Shown here piece after piece: positions 18,099 to 18,396 of a stretch of DNA of 64,000 nucleotides. A program made the translations under genes and the position numbers. Every line of letters begins with the position of its first letter. Positions within the stretch are counted from its first letter, which is position 1. Origin of the DNA: Deltaproteobacteria bacterium GWC2_55_46. GTDB taxonomy: Bacteria; Desulfobacterota; GWC2-55-46. The DNA lies in assembly GCA_001595385.3 (NCBI GenBank), contig LVEI03000001.1, positions 248,001 to 312,000 of the forward strand, read 5' to 3'. The notes beneath the pieces are model-generated. The model searched no databases. It was not told the origin of the DNA and saw only the letters and a program-made list of their open reading frames with translations.

Positions 18099-18180
18099 AA
18101 ACCCCCGTAACTGACGGAATCAAGGTGGATACCACCGGGGAGCGGGGTTACTGAAATATGATCGCCGACCGTCTGGGCAG
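18099..18180 (+). ncRNA. ZTP/ZMP riboswitch aptamer (pfl motif)
   Basis: The 384-bp gap before the isocitrate dehydrogenase gene contains the two conserved halves of the pfl RNA. The first half has GTAACTGACGGAA, a P2 hairpin GGTGG-ATA-CCACC (18124-18136) and GGGGAGCG. An outer stem pairs AACCCC (about 18100-18106) with GGGGTT (18144-18149). The second half, after a linker of about 11 bases, is CGCCGACCGTCTGGGCAG (18163-18180). Both match the consensus as known from structurally solved ZTP riboswitches. The ligand is ZMP/ZTP, which accumulates when 10-formyl-tetrahydrofolate is short. Ligand binding normally turns expression on. Confidence 0.93.
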
Positions 18181-18233
18181 AGAGAGCAAGGCTTAAAAAT
18201 GCCATGCTATTTTCAGGCTCAGACGGTTTTTTT
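18169..18233 (+). terminator. Intrinsic terminator forming the ZTP riboswitch expression platform
   Basis: CCGTCTGGGC (18169-18178), which is also the conserved second half of the aptamer, pairs with GCTCAGACGG (18217-18226) with one G-U pair. Seven T residues follow at once (18227-18233). The same bases cannot be in the ligand-bound aptamer and in the terminator stem, so binding should prevent termination. This is the standard ON design for this class. Confidence 0.9.
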
Positions 18234-18294
18234 GTGCCTTTTTGAAGATCCGTCATTGGCCAGATGAAGGAAAGCCGCAGACATACTTAAACAT

Positions 18295-18323
18295 TTGACA
18301 AAACACGGAAAATCTGGTTAATT
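18295..18323 (+). promoter_or_regulatory. Possible second promoter before idh
   Basis: A perfect TTGACA at 18295-18300 is followed after 17 bp by TTAATT, a poor -10 (3 of 6). If used, it would let idh and the acl genes be transcribed independently of the riboswitch located upstream. About 60 bp of AT-rich leader separates it from the idh ribosome binding site (AGGAG, 18386-18390). Confidence 0.35.
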
Positions 18324-18396
18324 CATTGCCTCAAATTCATGAAAAAACATACCTCAAATCCCTTAGCTTGTTGAAAAAAACAGACAGGAGAATTGT

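Follow-up and report, generated by a model that had tools for sequence, protein, structure and literature searches.

Computational analysis of a 64,000-nucleotide stretch of the genome (hereafter the window) identified a ZTP riboswitch aptamer, a terminator that overlaps it, a promoter upstream and an operon downstream, an arrangement that is conserved in relatives. The RNA is very probably a ZTP riboswitch with predicted ON control of idh-aclB-aclA, genes for isocitrate dehydrogenase and a predicted ATP-citrate lyase. The switch is ordinary and its regulon appears to be new, comprising across the class (GWC2-55-46) the succinate-to-acetyl-CoA arm of metabolism, suppliers of reductant and serine synthesis. 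Taken together, the findings suggest that a folate-stress signal has been rewired to drive central carbon metabolism.

An ordinary ZTP aptamer lies upstream of idh-aclB-aclA

A cmscan search of the whole 64-kb window against Rfam returned one match at the gathering threshold, RF01750, at positions 18097-18185 of the forward strand (57.7 bits against a gathering cut-off of 39 bits; E 9.2e-7; full model 1-86), which bears out the assignment of a pfl/ZTP aptamer to this locus in a preliminary description of the sequence. The aptamer contains P1, P2, P3 and the pseudoknot. Alignment of the aptamer places the 5′ strand of the pseudoknot, GACGG, in J1/2 (18113-18117, forward strand), and folding together with the alignment places the 3′ strand, CCGTC, in the P3 loop (18169-18173, forward strand), where it is shared with the terminator; all five pairs between the two strands are present. 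Of 93 aligned related aptamers, 91-93 retain these five pairs; P1 covaries across the alignment between U-A, C-G and G-U pairs, and the window aptamer agrees with its relatives at every column that is at least 90% conserved. Within the P3 loop, T18174 is identical in 93 of 93 aligned aptamers. A conserved U of the P3 loop contacts ZMP in ZTP riboswitches (PMC7337938), and by analogy T18174 would be this residue. Score, P1/P2/P3 with the pseudoknot, the conserved P3-loop U and an exclusive expression platform are thus all found, and judged from its sequence the element is an ordinary ZTP riboswitch, a member of the known class. The folate, purine or one-carbon target that is usual for the family, and not part of its definition, is absent here, the target being idh-aclBA.

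Such non-canonical targets could indicate a ZTP-like variant whose ligand specificity has shifted to another metabolite. However, the core is near-invariant and common to fhs- and serA-linked copies within the same phylum and class. A change of ligand is made unlikely by the match of the window aptamer to all of the columns that are at least 90% conserved and by the core that it shares with fhs-linked aptamers of the phylum, and we give the idea of a variant very little credence.

The terminator and promoter predict an ON switch

Folding of the RNA from position 18165 produced a hairpin at 18167-18228 (forward strand; -36.1 kcal/mol), with a T run at 18227-18233 (T7), that overlaps P3 and the pseudoknot and whose stability lies 5.65 standard deviations beyond that of dinucleotide shuffles (z -5.65). 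A simple terminator scan, with its loop limit of 8 nt, missed this hairpin. The CCGTCTGGGC strand (18169-18178) forms part of it, so that the overlap through a shared strand that had been proposed at the outset is confirmed; the 5′ arm of the terminator contains CCGUCUGGGC and is at the same time the pseudoknot strand and the 3′ side of P3. A script detected an overlapping terminator-like hairpin, in which the P3-loop strand is followed by a T run, at 101 of 105 related aptamers, a count for which a few calls took long or weak alternative hairpins. Since the pseudoknot/P3 strand also serves as the 5′ strand of the terminator, an ON-switch is predicted.

Upstream of the aptamer, a promoter scan detected a sigma-70-type promoter (TTGACA-17-TAAACT, 10 of 12 positions) at 18039-18067 on the forward strand. 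Upstream sites of this quality (at least 10 of 12, within 110 nt) accompany 70% of 104 related aptamers, compared with 1.3% in shuffles. The preliminary description had also placed a basal TTGACA promoter after the terminator, and a TTGACA hexamer is indeed present near 18296. Were it functional, the RNA might be a relic or might control only itself, with idh-acl expressed from an independent promoter beyond the terminator. However, the promoter scan found no acceptable -10 element after this hexamer and listed only the promoter at 18039-18067; moreover, promoter-like sites after the terminator are near chance among the 104 related aptamers (weak sites, 25% versus 21% in shuffles; strong sites, 5% versus 1.1%), in contrast to the strong enrichment of the upstream promoter. 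A basal promoter is therefore not supported at this locus, and a relic or self-controlling RNA is highly unlikely.

According to the model, transcription would start a short distance before the aptamer. At low ZMP/ZTP, CCGUCUGGGC in the emerging transcript would fold into the terminator and transcription would stop before idh. When 10-formyl-THF runs short, ZMP/ZTP would accumulate and the ligand would stabilize the P3 pseudoknot, thereby blocking the terminator and allowing idh-aclB-aclA to be transcribed. The ZTP class is known to act in this manner, as a transcriptional ON-switch in which the terminator is blocked once ZMP has stabilized the pseudoknot (PMC7337938, PMC2864571), and we infer that the window RNA likewise binds its ligand and regulates the operon in the cell.

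The operon encodes isocitrate dehydrogenase and a predicted ATP-citrate lyase of divergent type

The identities first proposed for the three downstream genes (18397-24745, forward strand) agree with protein family and structure searches. The first, idh (18397-20616), encodes a monomeric NADP-dependent isocitrate dehydrogenase of 739 aa (TIGR00178, 1366 bits against a cut-off of 950 bits). The second, aclB (20690-21997), encodes a protein of 435 aa, the ATP-grasp and citrate-binding subunit of a divergent ATP-citrate lyase/citryl-CoA synthetase; PF16114 and PF08442 both score above gathering, and the best match of solved structure is the large subunit of citryl-CoA synthetase (8e-37). The third, aclA (22025-24745), encodes a protein of 906 aa with a CCS-alpha-like N-terminal part, which matches citryl-CoA synthetase alpha, and a citrate-synthase-like C-terminal part. 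A fold search with a model of moderate quality (pLDDT 68) ranked Chlorobium ACL first and also listed citrate synthases. The GHAG loop of AclA, the catalytic His loop, is invariant in 24 relatives. All of the parts of an ATP-citrate lyase are thus present, namely an ATP-grasp and citrate-binding subunit, a CCS-alpha part with its His loop and a citrate-synthase-like lyase part, and on the strength of these matches and the modelled fold the aclBA product is a divergent, predicted ATP-citrate lyase. The open reading frame map leaves gaps of 73 nt between idh and aclB and 27 nt between aclB and aclA.

AclA is approximately 300 aa longer than its Chlorobium counterpart, apparently through its long citrate-synthase-like C-terminal part. 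Beyond aclA, a promoter-like site (TTGACA-17-TATCTT, 24843-24871) precedes a pilB/gspE-like gene, and for this reason the pilus genes probably constitute a separate transcription unit.

The aptamer is conserved before idh and acl in the class

At least one ZTP aptamer is present in 47 of the 63 genomes of the class, and the window's own genome has three. The association described for the window recurs in relatives: of the 47 idh genes in the class that are complete at their 5′ end, 34 are preceded on their own strand by an aptamer at a distance of 130-512 nt, including all 22 such genes in the window's own family, and the association spans several families. The other 13 of the 47 idh genes are without an aptamer; at least three of these are short of contig room, and about ten, outside the window's family, are without a detected ZTP. 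Among named GenBank loci, a model built from 33 aptamers gave 20 matches, and of the 21 idh-acl loci at which the 5′ end of idh is complete and enough sequence lies before it, 17 have an aptamer ahead of idh; for many of these records the genome is already in the numbered set.

Exceptional arrangements are also found. In genome G051 the aptamer precedes icd, which encodes a dimeric, non-homologous NADP-isocitrate dehydrogenase, together with aclBA; in G040 it lies directly before aclB, with idh elsewhere and without an aptamer; and in G055 and G057, where aclB is on a separate contig, it precedes idh. Across these arrangements the switch tracks function rather than any one gene. Another relative, G001, has an idh (C37:60146-62311; L034/L118) that lies beside a good ZTP aptamer and contains five stops, with 67% identity over its length, and is either a broken gene or an assembly error.

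The regulon extends to Rnf, transhydrogenase, sucCD-kor and serA-purA

To define the regulon, the sequence around 105 aptamers from a search of 147 genomes, 102 of them in the class, was grouped by downstream genes; gene names were checked by NCBIfam on representatives, with the ferredoxin and some Rnf subunits named by inspection only. Within the class, idh or acl lies downstream of 36 of the 102 aptamers, an rnfC-led Rnf operon downstream of 30 and a class V aminotransferase-serA-hisZ-purA operon downstream of 20. Five more precede a pntAA-AB-B transhydrogenase operon, twice led by ppa, and four precede sucC-sucD, which in G051 and G057 is followed by a small ferredoxin-like protein and subunits of 2-oxoglutarate:ferredoxin oxidoreductase. 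The remainder are followed by a CPA2 cation:proton antiporter (5; L165, L163, L152, L193 and L203), kup (1; L178) or a contig end (1). The aptamers before the antiporter and kup link ZMP to ion transport without obvious reason.

ZTP (pfl, RF01750) riboswitches usually target purH, fhs, glyA, folD and pfl (Weinberg 2010, PMC2864571; Sherlock and Breaker 2020, PMC7266159), and the targets given in the literature consulted belong to purine, formyl-THF and one-carbon metabolism. None of the 102 class aptamers has fhs, purH, folD or glyA as its first downstream gene, and in the window's own genome fhs and purH are present far from the three aptamers. The view that the targets depart from the canonical folate, purine and one-carbon set thus stands, with a regulon wider than had been claimed, since Rnf, sucCD-kor, transhydrogenase and serA-purA also belong to it. 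A second aptamer of the same genome (1501-1589 in L001; L001/L114) stands at the head of a class V aminotransferase-serA-hisZ-purA operon. The best family for this aminotransferase is the aspartate-glyoxylate aminotransferase BhcA, below cut-off.

Elsewhere in the phylum ZTP is rare, with 11 matching genomes among those sampled, and the copies precede glyA, fhs, serA or a class V aminotransferase and in one case a BenE-like transporter (several named by inspection). The serA link is thus common to the wider phylum, and the links to idh/acl, rnf, sucCD-kor and pnt look like additions within the class.

Two aptamers before ppa-pntAA (G012:C175:8545, L146; G009:C5:277431, L141) scored below threshold and carry an insertion of 60-130 nt that separates P1 from P3. 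Each is a complete, genuine aptamer that ends in CCGTCTGGGC and has a terminator with a T run. Long-linker ZTP aptamers of this type score below the Rfam cut-off and are therefore missed by Rfam.

Possible purposes of the regulon

According to the proposed scheme, the switch would have spread in the class to a regulon of three parts: sucCD-kor, idh and acl; Rnf and Pnt; and serA-purA. Succinate would be converted to acetyl-CoA and oxaloacetate through SucCD, the ferredoxin-dependent Kor, NADP-IDH and the cleavage of citrate, Rnf and Pnt would be able to supply reduced ferredoxin and NADPH, and serine synthesis would provide an outlet to one-carbon units. The most likely purpose, put forward tentatively, would be to direct carbon into serine, glycine and one-carbon units as the folate pool becomes depleted. 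It is also conceivable, if somewhat doubtful, that ZMP/ZTP controls autotrophic carbon fixation in this uncultured class, with the ferredoxin- and NADPH-dependent reductive arm (sucCD-kor, idh, acl), the Rnf and Pnt complexes that would power it and serine synthesis under one riboswitch class. If so, a folate-deficiency alarmone would be a master signal governing flux through the reductive TCA cycle.

On this view the target pathway would run reductively. Among the genomes examined, none has ZTP before all parts of the regulon, and the associations with sucCD-kor and pnt are few (4 and 5 loci). The window's own genome encodes KorA- and PorA-like proteins, with its sucD-kor and PorA-type oxidoreductase loci outside its three ZTP sites, and it contains no CdhC homologue and no sign of an acetyl-CoA synthase route. 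It also encodes citrate synthase, and the TCA cycle may therefore run oxidatively, in which case IDH might serve the supply of NADPH or 2-oxoglutarate.

An oxidative TCA arm would suit a serious rival to the reductive reading, namely that the same ZTP ON-switch secures glutamate, aspartate and glycine as precursors for purines. IDH would yield 2-oxoglutarate for glutamate and glutamine, citrate cleavage would yield oxaloacetate for aspartate, and serA would lead to glycine and one-carbon units, with purA itself in the regulon. Purine synthesis consumes glutamine, aspartate and glycine, as this explanation requires, and the presence of purA and hisZ after serA in a ZTP operon, like that of citrate synthase in the window's genome, is consistent with it. 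However, Rnf, Pnt and the ferredoxin-linked sucCD-kor operon are not readily explained by purine supply, and we regard it as rather unlikely, if well worth weighing.

Rnf and Pnt, together with ppa, the CPA2 antiporter and Kup, all lie downstream of ZTP aptamers and point in another direction, that ZMP acts not as a one-carbon signal but as a general alarmone of energy or redox state, turning on NADPH and ferredoxin supply and ion transport. Against this, serA-purA is still in the regulon and one-carbon targets are found outside the class, making a general alarmone improbable.

Placed ahead of the genes for isocitrate dehydrogenase, citrate lyase and Rnf, more than 60 copies across the class would connect the ZMP alarmone with central carbon metabolism and with electron flow, and would show how a riboswitch regulon can be rewired while the sensor stays fixed. 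Folate status would also be linked, in a testable manner, to possible carbon fixation through the reductive TCA cycle in a class known mainly from groundwater and subsurface metagenomes.

Comparison with known systems

Full-text literature searches returned nothing relevant that pairs a ZTP riboswitch with citrate lyase, isocitrate dehydrogenase, Rnf or transhydrogenase, within a scope that excludes the 2015 ZTP gene tables (Kim et al.), which may list some. Among the named GenBank loci searched, those labelled Nitrospinota share the same divergent acl, with AclA of the ~903-905 aa form and 64-69% identical, but unlike the window they lack both an idh beside it and a ZTP aptamer. In Nitrospina gracilis the divergent ACL is called predicted only (PMC3578206). 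The ZMP riboswitch of Thermosinus carboxydivorans (PMC7337938) resembles the window element in that the P3/pseudoknot strand doubles as the 5′ side of the terminator and the ligand acts as an antiterminator, whereas the window pseudoknot is GACGG/CCGUC and the downstream genes differ. With known ZTP riboswitches in general, the window element shares aptamer architecture, pseudoknot, terminator overlap and predicted ON logic; what sets the regulon apart is that idh-acl, rnf, sucCD-kor and pnt replace the folate and purine targets, the serA-purA operon alone fitting the established pattern.
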